Below are positions 28,055 through 39,238 of a stretch of DNA of 64,000 nucleotides, in pieces. This DNA is from Asticcacaulis machinosus. Its GTDB lineage: Bacteria > Pseudomonadota > Alphaproteobacteria > Caulobacterales > Caulobacteraceae. Within the stretch, counting starts at the first letter, position 1. Every line of letters starts with the position of its first letter. The notes under the pieces are model-generated. The model was not told where the DNA came from. It searched no databases and worked only from the letters and a program-made list of their open reading frames with translations. The DNA is taken from NCBI RefSeq assembly GCF_028550435.1, contig NZ_JAQQKV010000001.1, forward strand, positions 868,001 to 932,000. Reading direction: 5' to 3'. The position numbers were made by a program, and so were the translations under genes.

Positions 28055-28287
28055 GGCCTGATGTCGGAAAAATCCAAAAACAATAAGGGGAAACGCGTTT
28101 CCGGAGCGTCTTGGTTTACCCCCGCACCGGACGCGGCCTTTGACATCACCCGATGCACCCCACAGATGATCAATCTTGATCAATAGCTGATTGCAGTTGA
28201 CGGCTCCACCAAAGCGGGCATTATGTACCGCAATAAACCGGCGCCGCATTGAAGCCGCCAACAGGGACTACATTCAGGGGGACAGTC

Positions 28288-29856
28288 ATGTCATTGAAAT
28301 CTACCGCCGCCACAGGTGCGTTTATCGCGCGTACACTCATTATAAGTGCAGGCCTTATCCTGCCTGCGTCTGTTTTCGCACAAACGACGACACCGACGCC
28401 CGCAGCAGAAGCGCCTTCTGAAACGACCGTAACTGTCGAAGGCAAGCTAAAACCTAAAACAGCCGAACGCGCCCTGAGGCTAAACCCCAGAACGGCCAGT
28501 TCCTGTAATTTCATGTCCTCAGGCATGGGCAATTCCGAGACCTACCTCATTCAGGACTATATCGCGGCCACCACCGGCAACTCCAGCCCCGAAGCTATGG
28601 CCTCCGCCGGTGTCACCTATAATGACGATGGCACGATCTCTCAGGGTGACGGCAACACCTATTTCCGCGAAAACAGCCCTTATGGTGACGCCTCAACATC
28701 GTCCAATGCGGCAGCCGGTTTCATGAACCGATTTGATGGCAGCCAATCAACTGAATCGAATATTGCGGCCTATTGTTCACCCGGCGATCTGGCCTACACG
28801 GCCGGGCGCGCTCATATCGCCCGCCGCGATAAGACCCTGCCCGAAGCCTATGCCCTGTTTGATGCCAAGAAATACCCCGAAGCGCTGGAGATGGCGAAAA
28901 AATCCTACGCCAAGCTGACCGATTCCGAAGGCGGGGTCGAAGCCTCCCTGATGATCGGCAAGATCTATGTTTACGGCCTGCACGGCACTGCCGATGTCCC
29001 CGAAGGCTTGAAGTGGCTGGAGCGCGCCGCGGGCAGCCGCTTTGACATCACCCAACAGATGCCCGCCTTTGATCCGAAATACCCCGAAGACAGCCTCACC
29101 CCCATAAGCGAAGCCGCCGTTCTGATGGCCAAGGTCTATATGGTCGGTTTGGGCGTGCCGAAAAACCCGAAAGAGGCCCGCAAGTGGTTTGAGCGCGCCA
29201 ACTATGTCGGCTATGTCCCGGCGGCCAAGACTTTGGGTGACATCTATTATTATGGCTATGACACGCCCAAGGATGTCAAAAAGGCTGTCGAATATTATAC
29301 GCAGGCGGCAAAGCTTGGCTTCACGCCGGCGCAGTATTCGCTGGCGGAAATCTATTACTACGGCGACGACGGCACCAATGCCGACGTTAAAACCGCCGTC
29401 GCCTGGTATTATGAGGCGTCCAGACAAAGCCATGCCGGTGCGCTCCATGCCGTGGCCCGCGCCTATGATGCTGGCGAAGGCGTGGCCGCCGACCCGAACA
29501 AGGCGCTGGTCTATTATAAAGAGGCCGCCCTTGCCGGTAATGCCGATGCCCAGAACGCTATGGGCACCTATTTCTATCAGGGCGGGCAGATCGCCAAGGA
29601 TGATGTGTCGGCGCGTAAATGGTTCGAAGCTGCCGCCCGTCAGGGCCAGGATGAGGCCATGTTTAACCTCGCCGTCATGATGATGAAGGGCGAAGGCGGT
29701 GACAAAGATCCGGTCATGGCCTGGGTATGGTTCCGCCTGGCTCAGGCTAAAGGCCACGAAAACGCCAAAGCCGCCCTCACCGCACTGGAAAAACGCATGA
29801 CCGATGCCGATAAGGCGCAGGCTCTGGCGATCCTGTCGCCACCGGCAAAGTCTTAA
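28288..29856 (+). CDS. Secreted Sel1-repeat protein, paralog 1
   Basis: A 522-residue protein with a signal peptide (about 1-32, ending LPASVFAQ). A low-complexity stretch follows, then a region with two Cys (SSCNFMSSG and AAYCSPGDLAYTAGRAHI), and then about eight Sel1-type helical repeats from about residue 185 to the end (for example ARKWFERANYVGYVPAAKTL). Sel1 repeats usually scaffold protein interactions; in the envelope they are linked to stress or cell-wall functions. The ATG at 28288 is set by GGGGGA and the signal peptide. The next gene, 28 bp on, encodes a close paralog. Confidence 0.82.
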   Translation: MSLKSTAATGAFIARTLIISAGLILPASVFAQTTTPTPAAEAPSETTVTVEGKLKPKTAERALRLNPRTASSCNFMSSGMGNSETYLIQDYIAATTGNSSPEAMASAGVTYNDDGTISQGDGNTYFRENSPYGDASTSSNAAAGFMNRFDGSQSTESNIAAYCSPGDLAYTAGRAHIARRDKTLPEAYALFDAKKYPEALEMAKKSYAKLTDSEGGVEASLMIGKIYVYGLHGTADVPEGLKWLERAAGSRFDITQQMPAFDPKYPEDSLTPISEAAVLMAKVYMVGLGVPKNPKEARKWFERANYVGYVPAAKTLGDIYYYGYDTPKDVKKAVEYYTQAAKLGFTPAQYSLAEIYYYGDDGTNADVKTAVAWYYEASRQSHAGALHAVARAYDAGEGVAADPNKALVYYKEAALAGNADAQNAMGTYFYQGGQIAKDDVSARKWFEAAARQGQDEAMFNLAVMMMKGEGGDKDPVMAWVWFRLAQAKGHENAKAALTALEKRMTDADKAQALAILSPPAKS

Positions 29857-29884
29857 ACGCATCAACGATAACGGGAGGGGAAAA

Positions 29885-31336
29885 ATGAAAACGATCAACA
29901 AGAGCCATACCCGCGTGCTTATGCTCGCGGCAGCGGTTGCATGTCCGCATAGTGGAGCAATTGCACAGACTGAGCCCGCTCAAAAACCAGCCCCGGAGGC
30001 ATCCAAACCTGCAAATGCAGAAGAAGGTGATATCACCACCGTAACGGTATTTGGGAAACTCACCCCACCAACAGATTCCCTGACGATTGATGTAAGCTCC
30101 GCTTCATCTTGTGGCTTTATGTCATCTACCGGCTCCGGATATGACGGATATGCTCGACGATTTATCCGTGACGACAGTGGCGATTACAAATTTAGCGCTC
30201 GAAGCCCTTACGGTGATGCCTCACGTGATGACAATGGTGACCGTGCAGCAGAGGGCCTTGGCTTTGGTGGCGGTCGTAGAAGCGTTGGCGGATGCGGCCC
30301 TGCGGACTTTGGTTTTGCCTCCGGACGCGCCCAAATCAGAGCCCGCGACACCACTATGCGTGAGGCGGTCGATCTGTACAACGCCGGAAGATACTCAGAA
30401 TCTCTGGCGATGTTCAAAAAATCGTACAGCAAGATAGGGTATCATGAAGCCGCACTCATGATTGCCAAAATGCACCTTTATGGTGTGGGTACGGAAAAGA
30501 ATGTTCCCGAAGCCATAAAGTGGTATGAAAAACTGGCACTGCAACCCAACCGGTCAGGCCGTAAGAGCATCTCAACTTACATGACGCCTATGGTCGAAGC
30601 CTCCATGACCCTGGCGAAAATATATCTGATCGGTTTTGACGTCCCAAAGGATTCAAAGGCCGCTCGGAAATGGTTCGACCGCGCCTATGATGTCGGCTAT
30701 GCCCCTGCAGGAAAAACTTTGGGCGACATATATTATTTTGGCTACGACACACCACGCGATCTGGCCAAGGCCGTGAAGCACTATACGGAAGCCGCTCAGC
30801 ATGGCTATGCCCCTGCCCAATATGCGCTGGCTAATATTTTGTATTCCGGTGAAGAGACCATCAAAGCCAATCCGAAGATGGCGCTGGACTGGTACTGGCA
30901 TGCGTCCAAACAAAAGCACCCCGGCGCGACCTATGCCGTGGCGCGGGCCTATGATCTGGGCGAAAACGTCAAGGCCGATCCCGACCGCGCTTTGAGCCTC
31001 TATAAGGAAGCCGCCATCGGGGGCGACGGTGACGCTCAGAATGCCCTGGGCACCTATTTCTACAATGGGCAGATACTGCCAAAGGATCAGACCACCGCCC
31101 GTAAGTGGTTTGAGGCCGCCGCTGTACGCGGTCAGGCCGATGGTATGTTCAATCTGGCGGTCATGATGATGAAGGGCGAAGGTGGCGATACCGACCGCAC
31201 CAAGGCCTATGCGTGGCTGACCTTGGCGCAGAAAGCCGGTCATCCCAACGCCGAAGCGGTGCTCAAAATTCTGGAGGGCCGGATGACACCGGCTGAAAAA
31301 GCCGCCGCTGACGCCCTGCTGGCGCCGCAAACCTGA
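29885..31336 (+). CDS. Secreted Sel1-repeat protein, paralog 2
   Basis: A 483-residue protein with the same plan as its upstream neighbour: signal peptide (about 1-28, ending GAIAQ), a two-Cys domain (SSCGFMSS and GGCGPADFGFASGRAQI) with a shared SPYGDAS motif, then Sel1 repeats (ARKWFDRAYDVGYAPAGKTL). Long stretches match paralog 1, which points to tandem duplication followed by divergence. GGGAGGGG ahead of the ATG at 29885 fixes the start. The role is unknown. Confidence 0.82.
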   Translation: MKTINKSHTRVLMLAAAVACPHSGAIAQTEPAQKPAPEASKPANAEEGDITTVTVFGKLTPPTDSLTIDVSSASSCGFMSSTGSGYDGYARRFIRDDSGDYKFSARSPYGDASRDDNGDRAAEGLGFGGGRRSVGGCGPADFGFASGRAQIRARDTTMREAVDLYNAGRYSESLAMFKKSYSKIGYHEAALMIAKMHLYGVGTEKNVPEAIKWYEKLALQPNRSGRKSISTYMTPMVEASMTLAKIYLIGFDVPKDSKAARKWFDRAYDVGYAPAGKTLGDIYYFGYDTPRDLAKAVKHYTEAAQHGYAPAQYALANILYSGEETIKANPKMALDWYWHASKQKHPGATYAVARAYDLGENVKADPDRALSLYKEAAIGGDGDAQNALGTYFYNGQILPKDQTTARKWFEAAAVRGQADGMFNLAVMMMKGEGGDTDRTKAYAWLTLAQKAGHPNAEAVLKILEGRMTPAEKAAADALLAPQT

Positions 31337-33654: not shown

Positions 33655-34410
33655 TCAGTTATAGCCCTTGGACTTGATATAGGCCTCTAGCTGGTTGATA
33701 CGGGTCTCATCCGACGGGTGGGTCGACAGGAACTGCGGCTGGGCCCCTCCGGTGCGTTGCGCGGCCATATTGCGCCACAAGGCAATCGATTCAGACGGCT
33801 TGTACCCGGCCTTGGCCATCAGATCGACACCGATTTTATCGGCTTCAAGCTCATGCTGGCGCGAGAACGGCAGGATAACGCCCAGTTGCGCGCCGATACC
33901 GCCATAGCTTGAGATCACCTGCTGAGTGCGGCCAGACGTAGCCCCTGCGGCCACCTGAATACCGACCGAGGTCGCCACCTGCTGCGAGTAACGCTCGGCG
34001 GCGTGCTGAGCGATGTTGTGACCGGTTTCATGACCCAGCACCGCCGCCAGTTGGTCATCGTTCTTGACGACCTTGAACAGGCCGGAATTGACCCCGACCT
34101 TATTGCCCGGAATGACAAAGGCATTGGGTTGCGGGTTATCGAACACCACATATTCCCATGATTGCCCCGACAGGCCCGCAGCCTGAACGATACGCGCTCC
34201 AACGGTTTTGACCCGGCGGTTCATCTCAGGATCGGTCGAGATTTTTGAGGTCTTGAGCGTTTCCTGCCAGGCCGCCATCGCCGGTGCCGCCAGTTGGTCA
34301 TTATCCACCAGCAATAACTGCGACCGCCCAAGGGTTTCATTGGTGGTACAAGCCGCAACAGACACCAGCGCAATGGCCGCTATACCTGCGATTAAATGCT
34401 TTGAATTCAT
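33655..34410 (-). CDS. M48-family metalloprotease, lipoprotein
   Basis: A 251-residue zinc protease. The HEXXH motif is in GHETGHNIAQHAAERY, and a downstream Glu in HELEADKIGVDLMAKAGY completes the zinc site. The N-terminus (MNSKHLIAGIAAIALVS) ends VAAC, a likely lipobox, so it is probably attached to the outer membrane, as in the BepA/LoiP group that clears faulty outer-membrane proteins. An upstream GTG (34422) is possible; the ATG fits the signal peptide. Confidence 0.9.
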   Translation of the reverse strand: MNSKHLIAGIAAIALVSVAACTTNETLGRSQLLLVDNDQLAAPAMAAWQETLKTSKISTDPEMNRRVKTVGARIVQAAGLSGQSWEYVVFDNPQPNAFVIPGNKVGVNSGLFKVVKNDDQLAAVLGHETGHNIAQHAAERYSQQVATSVGIQVAAGATSGRTQQVISSYGGIGAQLGVILPFSRQHELEADKIGVDLMAKAGYKPSESIALWRNMAAQRTGGAQPQFLSTHPSDETRINQLEAYIKSKGYN

Positions 34411-34501
34411 GAGCGATGTCACCTGATGCCTGTTCCAGTTTTCACGAACTATCGCCCAGCCCGTATTAAATTACAATCAGGCAATCTCACCATCTGGCTC
34501 A

Positions 34502-35254
34502 TCATTTAGCCGCGGGTGGCTTCCAGTCGAAACCGAATGATATCTCACCTTCCGATGGAATCAAAAGTGTCGGGCCACCAAAAACGACCAGCCCCCTATC
34601 CTCAAACAAGGTTTGCGCCGAAGCACCTAACCCTGTTCCCTTTGGCTTTTCACTCGTCACGGTACAATGCGTTATGTCTCCGACGGTCTCTGACTCAGCA
34701 ACCTTATAGGCACACCGCAATTTTATATGCGCGCTCTTTTGGCTGCCTTTGGGGTAATAGTCATCTGCATTAGTGCCAGCCTTAAAGCCAATAGTCTCAC
34801 TTTCAGGCCGAAGTGGCCCTCCTTGCAACACCCATCTGTATCGCAAGGTTATGCGTCCGGCTTGCAAGCTTTCACCGTACTGTGTCCTCACTCGTCCGTA
34901 GCGGTGTATAATATCTTCCGTGGCTTTACCAAAGCCCATGCCTGCAGGATATTCTTCAAGCGTCCGGCAGCTTTTTATAGAACTCGTAGTTTCCCCGGAC
35001 GGAGGGGCATCAAAATCACATTCAATGCGCGCGACACCAGACTGTTCGGCGTCCAAAGCCTTAGCAGGATAATGCTTTAATGCCTCCGTTCCGCTTGGAT
35101 ATCTGGCCCAAACGAGGGGCTGCTCTGACGGGGCGGACGCAGGGTTTACCGACGCCACCGTATCATCCTGCGCTTCGCCAACGCCCGCCGTTATCAGGCT
35201 GATGATAAATCCCGCCACTAATGTTGCGCTACGGCCCACACTTCTGTTGATCAT
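34502..35254 (-). CDS. Periplasmic protein with two TonB-like C-terminal domains, copy B
   Basis: A 250-residue protein with a signal peptide (about 1-28), then two tandem domains of the type seen at the C-terminus of the TonB proteins encoded upstream. The first has RYPSGTEALKHYPAKALD and PAGMGFGKATEDI; the second has the shorter DDYYPKGSQKSAHI and PKGTGLGASAQTL. There is no proline-rich spacer and no retained membrane anchor. The second ATG (35254) is used, since GAGGG sits six bases ahead; 35260 is an alternative. It follows the sister gene by 17 bp. Confidence 0.68.
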   Translation of the reverse strand: MINRSVGRSATLVAGFIISLITAGVGEAQDDTVASVNPASAPSEQPLVWARYPSGTEALKHYPAKALDAEQSGVARIECDFDAPPSGETTSSIKSCRTLEEYPAGMGFGKATEDIIHRYGRVRTQYGESLQAGRITLRYRWVLQGGPLRPESETIGFKAGTNADDYYPKGSQKSAHIKLRCAYKVAESETVGDITHCTVTSEKPKGTGLGASAQTLFEDRGLVVFGGPTLLIPSEGEISFGFDWKPPAAK

Positions 35255-35271
35255 CCCCATCCCTCACGTTA

Positions 35272-36018
35272 CTAATCGAATTCGCCTGTTTCCGGCAGGT
35301 ACCACAGGAAAAACACCGGAAATCCCCCCTCGCGTTTATCTGTATCTATGCCGGTGGAATAGATGCGGGTTTTGGCCTCAAACAACTTGCGGGTTGCCTC
35401 TCCAAAGCCTTTGTTCTTCGGGAACTCACGCACCACGTCACAGCCGGTGACTTCGTCCTTTCCGCCCTCGCTTTTCCACTTGCACCACAGGCTGACGATC
35501 CCCGCCGTATCCCCGGTCATCAAGGCCGCAGGATAGTATGGCTGCGCGTCGGCCAGGGTCGGCTTTATGATGATCATACCGTCAACTATGCCATCACCTT
35601 CCAGCGTCCAGTGATAGCGGATTTTTATGGTCCGCTTTTCCGGCGGCAGCTTTGCGGTCTTTTCCAGATCGACCGTCCCATAAACCATCAGCAGCCGACG
35701 GGTAGCGTCGCCAAAACCATAGCCGTCCGGTGCTTCTTTAAGAATATCACAGTTCGTAATACGGCCTTTTTCGTCCCACCGGCACTCTAGGGTCGCGCTG
35801 CCGGGGACTTCCTGATCAAGCGCCGTATCCGGATAATAATCCAAGGCCTGATCGCCGGTCGGGTAGGTTTTCCAGAAAACCGGCGGCGGCGGGATTTCGG
35901 GGATTTTGTTAAATTCAGGACGCTCAGTCGGTGGCGTCTGAGCGGGTGAGGCTCCGTAACCAACGGACGCCACCCCGCAGGTTATCACCGCGACCGTAAC
36001 TAAAAATCGTAACCCCAT
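35272..36018 (-). CDS. Periplasmic protein with two TonB-like C-terminal domains, copy A
   Basis: A 248-residue protein with a signal peptide (about 1-23) and a short Pro-rich linker (IPEIPPPPVF). The first TonB_C-like domain is about residues 50-145 (TYPTGDQALDYYPDTALD, GYGFGDATRRLL) and the second about 150-245 (PYYPAALMTGDTAG, KGFGEATRKLF). Each domain keeps the paired Cys of the family. It has no membrane anchor, so it cannot couple to ExbBD like a normal TonB. It is the first gene of a two-gene unit after the terminator at 36074-36105. Confidence 0.7.
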   Translation of the reverse strand: MGLRFLVTVAVITCGVASVGYGASPAQTPPTERPEFNKIPEIPPPPVFWKTYPTGDQALDYYPDTALDQEVPGSATLECRWDEKGRITNCDILKEAPDGYGFGDATRRLLMVYGTVDLEKTAKLPPEKRTIKIRYHWTLEGDGIVDGMIIIKPTLADAQPYYPAALMTGDTAGIVSLWCKWKSEGGKDEVTGCDVVREFPKNKGFGEATRKLFEAKTRIYSTGIDTDKREGGFPVFFLWYLPETGEFD

Positions 36019-36073
36019 AACGCCCCCTGCCACTACAGTTTCATAATACCGTGGCGAGGTTGTAAGGCAATAA

Positions 36074-36105
36074 AAAACACCCTGAGACGAAACTCAGGGT
36101 GTTTT
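36074..36105 (-). terminator. Terminator after the second tonB
   Basis: An AAAACACCCTGAG/CTCAGGGTGTTTT stem of 13 bp with a 6-base loop lies 18 bp beyond the stop of the gene at 36123-36833, with T runs on both strands. Confidence 0.85.
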
Positions 36106-36122
36106 CAGTGTATCAGGAATTT

Positions 36123-36833
36123 TTAGTCGAGTGACCAGCGATAACGGATCTTCATCTTATCGCCGTCGCGTAAGGCACCATTGGCCGTCTGCGGTTTGGC
36201 GCGGGCATGTTTGACCATTAAGTCTGCTGTTGCCTGACCGAAGCCGTAACGGGCCGGATTTTCGGACAGAACCGAACAGGCCGTGATTTTACCTGACGCA
36301 TTGAATGTGCATTCCACCAACGCCTCCCCTTCGATTTCCTGATCCAGAGCCCGTGCGGGGTAATAATTCAGCGCCGCCTCCCCCGTCGGATAGCTGGCCC
36401 ATTGCGCCTTGACATAAGGGCTTGTCGCCGGCTGCGAGGATGTCCCCGCAGTTTCAGTGGGTGTGCCCGTCGCGATCGTCGCGGGCGGCGATGTCGTCAC
36501 CACCGGGCCCGCATCAACCGGTGACGGCTCCACCGGTATCGGCGGCGGCGCCAGCGGGGTTATAGGCGACTTATGAAGATCAATGGGTGGTGATTTCGGT
36601 GCTTGGGTCGGCGGTGGCGGTGGGGTAAACCTGATCATAACGCCGTCATTAATATGCACTGGGGGCGGCGGCGGCAGTTCAATCATCTGAAAATTCTGAT
36701 TGATCAGATAGGCCGCAATCCCCGCATGCAGCAGGGCCGCAACGCCCAGCCCGGCCAAAACGGACGGCGATAACCGGCGATGAGCGGTCGTTGCAAACAG
36801 CGGATGATAAACATTATGCGCCACTTCGGACAT
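36123..36833 (-). CDS. TonB-like energy transducer, second copy
   Basis: A 236-residue protein with a cytoplasmic start, one transmembrane helix (about 25-45, GLGVAALLHAGIAAYLI), a Pro-rich periplasmic spacer (about 50-130) and a TonB C-terminal domain (about 140-236: SYPTGEAALNYYPARALDQE, RYGFGQATADL). It has the same plan as the tonB next to exbBD but a shorter spacer. Terminators lie on both sides, so it is probably transcribed alone. It may serve a different set of receptors. Confidence 0.82.
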   Translation of the reverse strand: MSEVAHNVYHPLFATTAHRRLSPSVLAGLGVAALLHAGIAAYLINQNFQMIELPPPPPVHINDGVMIRFTPPPPPTQAPKSPPIDLHKSPITPLAPPPIPVEPSPVDAGPVVTTSPPATIATGTPTETAGTSSQPATSPYVKAQWASYPTGEAALNYYPARALDQEIEGEALVECTFNASGKITACSVLSENPARYGFGQATADLMVKHARAKPQTANGALRDGDKMKIRYRWSLD

Positions 36834-37133
36834 GATGAACCCCTGTGAAAGGTCGTGACGCCCTCCGGTCGGTTGCGTCTGTCATGCCACATATCTGGGC
36901 CACCGGCATTAAGCGCAGTCAGCCCGAAAGGCCAAAATATCAAGCGGCTTTGGCCACGACATCGTGACACACAAAAGCTCATGAACCCTAAGAACGACAG
37001 GACTTATGGTTGTTGCGCCTCCCCAATCTGACGCTGGGGAAAGCAGCATCAGAATACCGCAGAATTTTGCGTCTCAAAGTCAATAAACTGTGATCACAAA
37101 AACTCGCGCCCTGCACGAACCGCGTTGACATAG
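36834..37133. other. Intergenic region between two tonB genes
   Basis: No gene is seen. It must hold the promoter of the tonB copy at 36123-36833. A minus-strand reading frame of 92 codons overlapping that gene's start lacks support and is not called. Confidence 0.4.
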
Positions 37134-37168
37134 AAAAACACCCCGCAGTCGCCTGCGGGGTGTTTTTT
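37134..37168 (-). terminator. Terminator of the exbB-exbD-tonB operon
   Basis: A CACCCCGCAG/CTGCGGGGTG stem with a 4-base loop has A and T runs on both sides (six or more bases each). It lies 18 bp past the tonB stop. Confidence 0.9.
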
Positions 37169-37186
37169 TAGCGGGTATCAGGTGGA

Positions 37187-37906
37187 TTAGTTCAAGGTCC
37201 ACTTATAGCGGATCTTAATCTTGTCACCTTCTTGGATTACGCCATCAGAAGTCTGCGGTTTAGCACGGGCATAGCGTACCAGAACTTTAACCGTAGCCTC
37301 ACCAAACCGATAACCGGCTGGCTTTTCGCTGATGACCGTACAGCCTGTAACCTTACCACTACTGGCCAGAGTACATTCAACCGTAGCCTCCCCTTCCACT
37401 TCACCGTCCAAAGCGCGTGGTGGGTAGAAGTTCAGCGAAGTTTCGCTGTTAGGATAGCTGGCCCATTCCGCTTTCACGTAACGCGGTCCAGCGGGAACCA
37501 CAGGTGCAGGCGGCGGTGGCGGTCCGGGGATGACCTGAGGGGGGCCCTCATATTCAACCCGGTCTTCCTTCTTGGTCGGCTCGATCCGGATAGGTTCCGG
37601 TGCCGGTACATCCGTTACCACCGGCTCACGAATCTGGAGCTTAGGTGGCGGCGGCGGCAGATCGGGCGGCGGTGGCGGAGGCGGTGGAGGCGGCGGCGGA
37701 GGTGGCAAAAGCTCCTCCAGCGTCGTATCTATCTTCTCATCCACATACTGGACTTCTTTGATCTCGAACCTTTCTTTGTAGATATAGTAACCGAGAGCAA
37801 CGTGGAATACGGCGGCAACACCGACACCGATAAAGATAGCACCCTTGTTCTTGTTAGGGGGCGGATCCAGAATCGGGTCGCGGCGTCTGTGGGGGGTCTC
37901 TTCCAT
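37187..37906 (-). CDS. tonB: Energy transducer TonB of the exbBD operon
   Basis: A 239-residue TonB that passes proton-motive-force energy from ExbBD to outer-membrane receptors. It has a short cytoplasmic N-terminus, one helix (about 24-43, AIFIGVGVAAVFHVALGYYI), a strongly proline-rich spacer (a run of 14 Pro near residue 70) and the C-terminal receptor-contacting domain (SYPNSETSLNFYPPRALDGE, GYRFGEATVKVLV). The start at 37906 lies 16 bp after exbD; a longer upstream frame overlaps exbD. Cys in the C-terminal domain (VECTLASSGKVTGCTV) are conserved among the four copies. Confidence 0.9.
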   Translation of the reverse strand: MEETPHRRRDPILDPPPNKNKGAIFIGVGVAAVFHVALGYYIYKERFEIKEVQYVDEKIDTTLEELLPPPPPPPPPPPPPPDLPPPPPKLQIREPVVTDVPAPEPIRIEPTKKEDRVEYEGPPQVIPGPPPPPAPVVPAGPRYVKAEWASYPNSETSLNFYPPRALDGEVEGEATVECTLASSGKVTGCTVISEKPAGYRFGEATVKVLVRYARAKPQTSDGVIQEGDKIKIRYKWTLN

Positions 37907-37922
37907 AGTGTCTGGGCCCTCC

Positions 37923-38357
37923 TTACTTGTTACCGTCTTCGCCGACCAGAGCCACACTGTAGAAACCACTGTCCTGCAATGCGTTCATGACTTCCATGAA
38001 GGTGCCGTAGCGAACCTTCTTGTCAGCACGAATAAAGATACGCTCTTCGTCGGGATTACGCTTACCAATCAGACGCTTCAGATCTGCACCTAAGCCATCG
38101 ACTGATGTGGGACCGTCACCGATAAACAGATCACCATCAGCCTGGATGGAGATGAATACCGGTTTGGGCGGGTTTTCTTGCGGTGGGGCGACGGCTGTTG
38201 GCATTTGAACTTCTACCGACACAGTGGCCATTGGGGCGGCCACCATGAAGATAATCAAAAGCACCAGCATGATGTCGACGAACGGCGTAACGTTAATTTC
38301 GCTGTTCTGCTCGATATGAAACTTCGAGCCGCCGCCACCTGATAGCTTGGCTCCCAT
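37923..38357 (-). CDS. exbD: Biopolymer transport protein ExbD
   Basis: A 144-residue protein with a single N-terminal helix (about 24-42) containing the essential Asp in VTPFVDIMLVLLIIFM, the proton-path residue shared by ExbD/TolR/MotB. A periplasmic domain follows. It lies between exbB (5 bp upstream) and tonB. Assignment to ExbD rather than TolR rests on the neighbours; no tol-pal genes are nearby. Confidence 0.92.
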   Translation of the reverse strand: MGAKLSGGGGSKFHIEQNSEINVTPFVDIMLVLLIIFMVAAPMATVSVEVQMPTAVAPPQENPPKPVFISIQADGDLFIGDGPTSVDGLGADLKRLIGKRNPDEERIFIRADKKVRYGTFMEVMNALQDSGFYSVALVGEDGNK

Positions 38358-38362
38358 CTAAA

Positions 38363-39238
38363 TTACGCCCCTTTGTCGAGTTGACGCGACAGCGTATTCA
38401 TCAGTTCCGAAACAAATTGCTCCGAACGGGTGCCGTAAGCAGCGATCATGGTGTTGAAGATGTTGTACATGGCAACGGCCGGAATAGCGGCGGCCAGACC
38501 GATACCGGTCGCCAGAAGGGCTTCAGCGATACCCGGAGCCACAACAGCCAGGTTGGTGGTGTTGGTGTTCGCGATACCGATGAAGGAGTTCATGATCCCG
38601 TAAACCGTACCGAACAGACCGATGAATGGCCCAAGCGACCCGGTCGAAGCGAGGAAGGTCAAGCCACCCGACAGGCGCTTGGACAGACCGGCCTGAACGG
38701 CGTTGATCGAGGACGACGCGCGGTGCAGGGTCGAGTCGCGGTGTTCACCGGAGATCGACAGGCCAGCGGACTTGGAGATCTGAATTTCTTCGGTCGCCAC
38801 AGCGGCCATGTCGGCCATCGGGTTACCGGCAAATTCGTCAGACACCGAAACGCGGTTGATGTCAGCGATCGAGCGAGCGCCGCGGAAAGCTTCGAGGTAG
38901 TTGTTCGACGCTTTGTTCAGGCTGCTGAATTCGATCATCTTCACGACCAGGATAATCCAGGACAGAACCGACATCAGCACGAGGCCGATCATCACGACCT
39001 TAACGACCGGCACGGCCATCATGAACATGGTAGCAACGGTCAGTTCACCGTGACCTGCTTCGGCCGGGGCCGCAGCGTCTTCAGCAGGCTCAGCCGCAGG
39101 GGCTTCAGCAGCAGCGGCAGGCGCCGCTTCAGCAGCCGGGGTTGCCGGAGCGGCAGCCGCCAGACCGGGGACGCTCATGAACAGTGCAGCCGCACCGAGC
39201 AGAGCAATGAGAGGGTTGTGTTTCTTGTGTTCGAGCAT
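38363..39238 (-). CDS. exbB: Biopolymer transport protein ExbB (MotA/TolQ/ExbB family)
   Basis: A 291-residue inner-membrane protein. It has an N-terminal signal-like helix and an Ala/Pro/Glu-rich periplasmic stretch (about 28-65), as in ExbB proteins of several Gram-negatives. Three helices follow: about 68-100, then the family pair with GSLGPFIGLFGTVYGIMNSF and LLATGIGLAAAIPAVAMYNI. It assembles a pentamer around ExbD. First gene of the exbB-exbD-tonB operon. Confidence 0.94.
   Translation of the reverse strand: MLEHKKHNPLIALLGAAALFMSVPGLAAAAPATPAAEAAPAAAAEAPAAEPAEDAAAPAEAGHGELTVATMFMMAVPVVKVVMIGLVLMSVLSWIILVVKMIEFSSLNKASNNYLEAFRGARSIADINRVSVSDEFAGNPMADMAAVATEEIQISKSAGLSISGEHRDSTLHRASSSINAVQAGLSKRLSGGLTFLASTGSLGPFIGLFGTVYGIMNSFIGIANTNTTNLAVVAPGIAEALLATGIGLAAAIPAVAMYNIFNTMIAAYGTRSEQFVSELMNTLSRQLDKGA

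Follow-up and report, generated by a model that had tools for sequence, protein, structure and literature searches.

In the 64,000-nucleotide window of the Asticcacaulis machinosus genome analysed here, two adjacent genes, tandem genes 3 and 4, follow exbB, exbD and two tonB genes (tonB1 and tonB2) on the minus strand, and each of them is predicted to encode two folds like the C-terminal domain (CTD) of TonB. The accepted view of TonB is that of an anchored arm acting on receptor plugs. For the tandem genes we propose, giving it a probability of about one half, that their products are secreted, non-energised derivatives of the TonB CTD that capture extended peptides and would be unable to drive uptake. 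The proposal is built on computed features: two CTD-like folds per protein, the Cys pair, the β3 pattern, the lack of a second hydrophobic segment and of a long arm, the loss of an Arg, and a patchy distribution.

The Pfam TonB_C model (PF03544) recognises domain 1 of gene 3 (29.7 bits with a curated cut-off of 24.6), domain 2 being unmatched, and gene 4 has no Pfam or NCBIfam match even at an E-value of 10. An earlier note on this DNA, which proposed a search with TonB_C models, had taken the domain to be repeated in both genes, and this repetition is borne out by a hidden Markov model (HMM) built from 80 domains, all from outside Asticcacaulis. The model finds all four domains, with E-values of 8.9e-20 and 1.2e-10 in gene 3 and of 6.4e-14 and 1.4e-5 in gene 4, the best value among 2000 residue-shuffled proteins being 8.5. 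Of the conserved features described in that note, the Cys pair is present in the four tandem domains, and the FGxAT motif in three of them but not in domain 2 of gene 4, which reads LGASA. The AlphaFold2 models present, after an unordered N-terminus, two domains per protein with the helix and strand order of the TonB CTD, and have a mean predicted local distance difference test (pLDDT) of 77.6 in both cases. Ten-residue blocks of gene 3 have a pLDDT of 83-97 in the first domain and 64-94 in the second, those of gene 4 one of 78-96 and 72-96. The top Foldseek matches of both models are the E. coli TonB CTD (1xx3 and 1u07), FusB and the BtuB:TonB complex, with a probability of 1.00, no E-value below 0.001 (the best being 1.3e-3 and 4.1e-3) and no indication of which of the two domains was matched. 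The CTD that characterises TonB transducers is thus, in the predicted structures, present twice in each protein.

The products of genes 3 and 4 would be exported to the periplasm. Both have a short hydrophobic N-terminus by hydropathy, together with an AxA-like site recognised by eye, and from the first domain onward neither contains a 19-residue window with a mean hydropathy of at least 1.6. These profiles agree with the earlier description of the proteins as unanchored with secreted-looking starts, and the transmembrane anchor of TonB transducers is missing by the same measure. Their long Pro-rich linker is missing too: the stretch before the first domain has 31 residues with 9 Pro in gene 3 and 20 residues with 3 Pro in gene 4, compared with 105 residues and 35 Pro in tonB1 and 100 residues and 27 Pro in tonB2. 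The absence of a Pro-rich spacer, as first claimed, therefore holds for a long arm, but gene 3 keeps a short Pro-containing stretch. In the excerpt available of PMC10907165, the D-box behind the TonB anchor is the element that binds ExbD; a pattern scan for it gave no match in genes 3 and 4, but tonB1 and tonB2 were also missed behind their anchors.

The most marked sequence difference concerns the Arg of the YPxRA motif, present in 85 of 89 anchored TonBs and in 6 of 66 secreted domains (a count over nine of the 20 selected loci plus earlier loci), and in none of the four tandem domains of the window, which therefore lack the plug-contact Arg of TonB transducers. Outside that count there were 32 rows, one anchored TonB with the Arg and 31 secreted domains, three of which have it, so that the secreted total is 9 of 97. 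The motif reads YPPRA and YPARA in tonB1 and tonB2, and the Arg is present in the four printed alignments to solved TonBs. As far as the consulted part of PMC6118199 goes, Arg166 of E. coli TonB is highly conserved, and Glu56 in the plug of FhuA is its proposed target. The comparison covered the columns conserved in at least 75% of the 89 anchored TonBs. The 66 secreted domains keep P15 (62), C31 (66), C42 (66), E47 (56) and P49 (62), while, apart from the Arg, S46 falls from 73 of 89 anchored to 18 of 66 secreted sequences, L91 from 69 to 13 and G75 from 87 to 39. The TonB box pairs with the β3 strand of TonB (PMC11658791, in extract), and the hydrophobic alternation of β3 is kept in the five sets compared, including the four window tandem domains. 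Because this pattern is kept, binding of TonB boxes by the tandem domains is possible.

According to our proposal, a disulphide would form in each tandem domain, and the resulting two-headed binder, uncoupled from ExbBD, would take extended strands by β-augmentation on β3. Candidate strands are TonB boxes, unfolded outer-membrane proteins, substrates of the neighbouring M48 peptidase and other periplasmic proteins; that the binding partner is something other than a receptor plug is a guess.

Several points weigh against capture of peptides by a secreted CTD derivative. The AlphaFold2 input consisted of 22 aligned rows with their depth on the first domains, the second domains being backed by two rows only. 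Conservation of the Cys residues is partly built in, because the search profile contains the Cys pair. The column of the lost Arg is one which we take to be E. coli R166, by way of the YPxRA alignment. The anchored set is composed mostly of exbBD-linked TonB1/2, and the Arg is also missing in short transmembrane-anchored 184-aa proteins (0/3) and in domains fused to M56 peptidases (0/3), so that the residue may go with exbBD linkage and not with the anchor. Supported independent anchored/secreted pairs amount to two, both nearly always in the expected direction and too few for significance; the Fisher p of 8e-31 for the Arg contrast greatly overstates the case, because the losses are not phylogenetically independent. 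Genes 3 and 4 are 32% identical and saturated for the ratio of nonsynonymous to synonymous substitution rates (dN/dS). Finally, the tandem pair occupies this locus in none of 24 Asticcacaulis relatives, two of which, close ones, probably keep a deletion scar of gene 4, and these absences also fit duplicates without a lasting role.

Two TonB_C matches are found at the locus, beside exbBD or the M48 gene, in 24 of 24 Asticcacaulis relatives, a count that allows for contig breaks (the locus is split in G001 and G023, and the contig of G004 ends within tonB1) and for interrupted frames; the M48 gene was not called in G020. A four-gene order that includes the pair as a conserved system, the conservation of which the earlier note had proposed to check, is ruled out by the same 24 relatives. 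Interrupted frames, either real or due to assembly error, were seen at L042, L048 and L054, in tonB1 of G006 and in exbB of G012 and G018, G018 having also a short tonB2 frame. Extra TonB_C-like genes lie downstream of M48 in 8 of the 24 relatives: secreted-looking single-domain proteins in five (G005, G011, G015, G017 and G023) and a short transmembrane-anchored 184-aa protein in three (G001, G006 and G010). The gap between tonB2 and M48 is short in G002, G004, G012 and G013. In G002 and G004, 87 bases of it can be aligned to gene 4 at its 5′ end (62 and 61%, with 0 of 1000 dinucleotide shuffles scoring as well), probably the remnant of a deletion. The match of the G012 gap to gene 4 is not significant (548 of 1000 shuffles), part of the G002 stretch being common to it by eye, and none was seen by eye in that of G013. 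We take this pattern as loss by deletion in the relatives, in which case the tandem pair would be dispensable.

Genes 3 and 4 might be lineage-specific duplicates without a lasting role, that is, exported CTD copies that diverge fast and are being lost. Decay of this kind, although we hold it unlikely on balance, is a serious rival for the window pair, and less so for the wider multi-CTD family. It is favoured by the distribution just described, by the branch lengths of the second domains, which are long (2.16 and 2.27) in a 132-domain tree, and by the GC content at third codon positions, which is lowest in gene 4 (0.51 vs 0.57-0.73 in the eleven other window genes compared). On the other hand, both frames are open over about 250 codons, the Cys pair persists in all four domains and the predicted folds are mostly confident. 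Moreover, the secreted single-domain paralogues of the genus are apparently constrained, with dN/dS between species of 0.15 (at a dS of 2.2, near saturation) and 0.30, a third pair being saturated; the ratio is 0.14-0.17 in the 184-aa anchored group, 0.06-0.12 in tonB1 pairs and 0.15-0.23 in tonB2 pairs. Secreted multi-CTD proteins also appear repeatedly elsewhere in the family.

Of 149 Caulobacteraceae genomes drawn evenly, 148 have a Cys-pair TonB_C domain, with up to 27 matches per genome, in a survey that scored at most 35 candidates in each. Frames with at least two domains occur in seven of 20 genomes drawn from the survey by handle number outside Asticcacaulis (G061, G101, G116, G126, G131, G136 and G146), in two of 25 Asticcacaulis genomes (G000, that of the window, and G008 with a partial second domain) and in all eight genomes picked for a high TonB_C copy number. 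From loci of the latter, chosen for that feature, 28 multi-domain frames were read, with two to five domains each. Adding the window pair makes a set of 30, one being an M56 fusion and the start codons uncurated, in which a hydrophobic segment (mean hydropathy of at least 1.3) precedes the first domain in 26 frames and no segment of at least 1.6 follows the start of the first domain in 29. Among ten multi-domain proteins checked with Pfam, the highest number of TonB_C stretches marked in any one is four. A four-domain query matched 10 of 241 genomes of the class, three of them Caulobacteraceae, few candidates being scored per genome, which makes this a weak test of absence. A plasmid collection gave no match for a named tandem homologue, and a single scan of genome contigs returned tonB1 relatives only.

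At L153 (6350-10438), each of four adjacent genes, which overlap by four bases, encodes a TonB_C protein of three domains that starts with a hydrophobic stretch; a gene that is polA-like by eye lies next to them. L165, L166 and L167 have proteins with two TonB_C domains and long other stretches between and after them; the proteins of L166 and L167 are encoded beside a gyrB-like gene (by eye). In Brevundimonas diminuta 470-4 (L097, 8837-9154), a TonB_C-like protein of 105 aa, its start lipobox-like by eye, lies between tonB1 and M48. At L154 (5284-9903), an M56 (BlaR1-type) peptidase carries three TonB_C domains at its C-terminal end, and the next two genes, each secreted-looking and of three domains, look like the periplasmic part of the M56 protein set free.

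In the 132-domain tree, the four tandem domains of the window group together (support 88/82) in an unresolved region beside the tonB1 and tonB2 domains of Asticcacaulis, and the tandem domains of other genera cluster mostly by position in the protein. When the tree was reduced to 85 rows, with both window second domains omitted as long branches, all Asticcacaulis rows, including the two window first domains, formed one clade (99/95). Grouping the window first domains with the tandems of other genera is not favoured, the log-likelihood being 39.9 lower, with a p in the approximately unbiased (AU) test of 0.065, above 0.05. The trees suggest a local, Asticcacaulis origin of the window tandem domains, and more than one origin of the tandem secreted forms is probable.

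The earlier note had offered competition for TonB boxes, receptor bridging or TonB recycling as functions, and none of them gains positive support here. As competitors, the secreted double CTDs would bind the TonB boxes of the many TonB-dependent receptors (TBDRs) of this genome but leave the receptors unenergised, thereby tuning or capping the Ton system. The fold, the β3 pattern and the placement beside exbBD-tonB1-tonB2 speak for it, as do the numbers in the genome, 72 Plug matches vs six PF03544 matches, three of them outside the exbBD-tonB locus. Over-expression of TbfA inhibited hemin uptake in Riemerella, its authors proposing competition for ExbB-ExbD and not for receptors, to judge from the portion at hand of PMC5109031. 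Nevertheless, all four domains have lost the Arg166 equivalent, and the pair is missing at the locus in the 24 relatives despite the 32-85 Plug matches of the 23 counted. TonB_C copy number, furthermore, does not track TBDR number in two sets not selected for copy number: given genome size, the partial correlation with Plug number is 0.05 (p 0.83) in 24 Asticcacaulis genomes, G004 omitted, and -0.26 (p 0.27) in the sample of 20. Inclusion of the eight high-copy genomes yields -0.90 (n=8), -0.40 with p 0.033 (n=28) and -0.40 with p 0.0038 (n=52), values left unused because those genomes were picked for their TonB_C number. Competition for TonB boxes is consequently doubtful. A role in bridging two receptors by a double CTD, or in recycling TonB, is highly improbable, since two domains per protein and β3 alternation in all four have to be set against the short linker that joins the domains, the lost plug-contact Arg and a domain number that is not fixed, being one in the secreted proteins of five relatives and two to five in other genera.

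As a secreted strand binder, the tandem pair can be placed among related proteins. Genes 3 and 4 share with the TonB transducers (PF03544; E. coli TonB, FusB) the CTD-like fold, the YP and G motifs and the β3 strand, and differ from them in lacking the transmembrane anchor, the long Pro-rich arm and the plug-contact Arg, and in having two CTDs. The M56 (BlaR1/MecR1-like) proteins also carry several TonB_C domains, that of L154 having three by the other-genera profile and one by Pfam, whereas the membrane peptidase part is missing from genes 3 and 4. MecR1-TonB fusions were reportedly described by Chu et al. in 2007. The Caulobacteraceae proteins of other genera with two to five TonB_C domains are similar in their hydrophobic start, their tandem Cys-pair CTDs and the mostly missing plug-contact Arg, but form clades mostly by domain position, apart from the window pair. 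Riemerella TbfA, a TonB paralogue not linked to exbBD, is unable to support the uptake of hemin, which its over-expression inhibits (PMC5109031, in part); the comparison with genes 3 and 4 concerns this phenotype, and not domain architecture, secretion or tandem repeat. As the earlier note had supposed, no secreted or tandem TonB CTD protein was found described in the titles and abstract openings of the open-access papers listed, subscription journals being mostly outside that scope, nor in the accessible text of PMC8262864, PMC13367063, PMC3602595 and PMC8597729.

At the locus itself (Table 1), the six genes from exbB to tandem gene 4 lie on the minus strand in the order first reported, exbB-exbD-tonB followed by three more genes of TonB_C type, and are continued by the genes of the M48 peptidase, a DAO-type oxidoreductase and an SLT-domain protein. 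The genome is of 3.77 Mb, and its named close relatives are Asticcacaulis endophyticus and Asticcacaulis sp. UBA2476. The start of tonB1 was set at the ATG giving MEETPHRR..., the product start common to relatives. Both tonB1 and tonB2 have every transducer feature examined: anchor, Pro-rich linker, CTD above cut-off, exbBD linkage and plug-contact Arg. Tandem genes 3 and 4, separated by 17 bases with the starts chosen, probably form their own transcription unit, perhaps with the M48 gene, because T-tailed, terminator-like hairpins follow tonB1 and tonB2. Neither hairpin is among the minus-strand sites of a terminator pattern scanner, and the pattern scan was at chance, with 4 promoter-like sites vs 4.0 expected and 7 terminator-like sites vs 6.8.

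Table 1. Features of the exbBD-tonB locus and its tandem CTD genes (window positions)
Feature	Position	Strand	Description
exbB	38363..39238	-	Pfam MotA_ExbB 6e-27
exbD	37923..38357	-	Pfam ExbD 5e-30
tonB1	37187..37906	-	hydrophobic anchor, long Pro-rich linker, single TonB_C; Pfam TonB_C 1e-8
hairpin 3′ of tonB1	37132..37176	-	intrinsic-terminator-like; -27.1 kcal/mol, z -6.4, 0/200 shuffles as stable
tonB2	36123..36833	-	hydrophobic anchor, Pro-rich linker, single TonB_C; Pfam TonB_C 1.7e-7
hairpin 3′ of tonB2	36060..36106	-	intrinsic-terminator-like; -21.6 kcal/mol, z -6.7, 0/200 shuffles as stable
tandem gene 3	35272..36018	-	signal-peptide-like start, two predicted TonB-CTD domains
tandem gene 4	34502..35254	-	signal-peptide-like start, two predicted TonB-CTD domains, domain 2 most diverged
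M48 metallopeptidase	33655..34422	-	Pfam Peptidase_M48 1.5e-42; neighbour kept in most of the genus (synteny)

Elsewhere in the window, two plus-strand genes (28249-29856 and 29804-31336) encode Sel1-repeat proteins that have a signal-peptide-like start, continue with a short stretch of low complexity and then read TTVTV[E/F]GK. The motif resembles the TonB box region of TBDRs of the same window (EEVTVVGIRK and QEVVVRGFRK) and is present in 10 of 10 copies of the Sel1 proteins from five close species; within the stretches fetched, the Sel1 pair occurs only in those five.

Taking a wider and far more tentative view, one that we consider improbable as it stands, Caulobacteraceae would have given rise, on probably more than one occasion, to secreted TonB CTD proteins of one to five domains arranged like beads on a string. 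These would have kept the strand-capturing edge and shed both the motor coupling and the plug-opening Arg, and would act in solution as a buffer for TonB boxes or further exposed strands in cells whose tens of receptors depend on a small number of Ton motors. In C. crescentus, 66 TBDRs stand against two ExbD orthologues (PMC12864828, in excerpt). If capture of extended peptides by genes 3 and 4 is true, secreted multi-copy CTDs would separate strand binding from force and would constitute a natural test of the role of Arg166. They may also help to explain how oligotrophs share out few Ton motors among tens of receptors. Were the partner not a receptor, the TonB CTD would have been reused as a periplasmic peptide binder.

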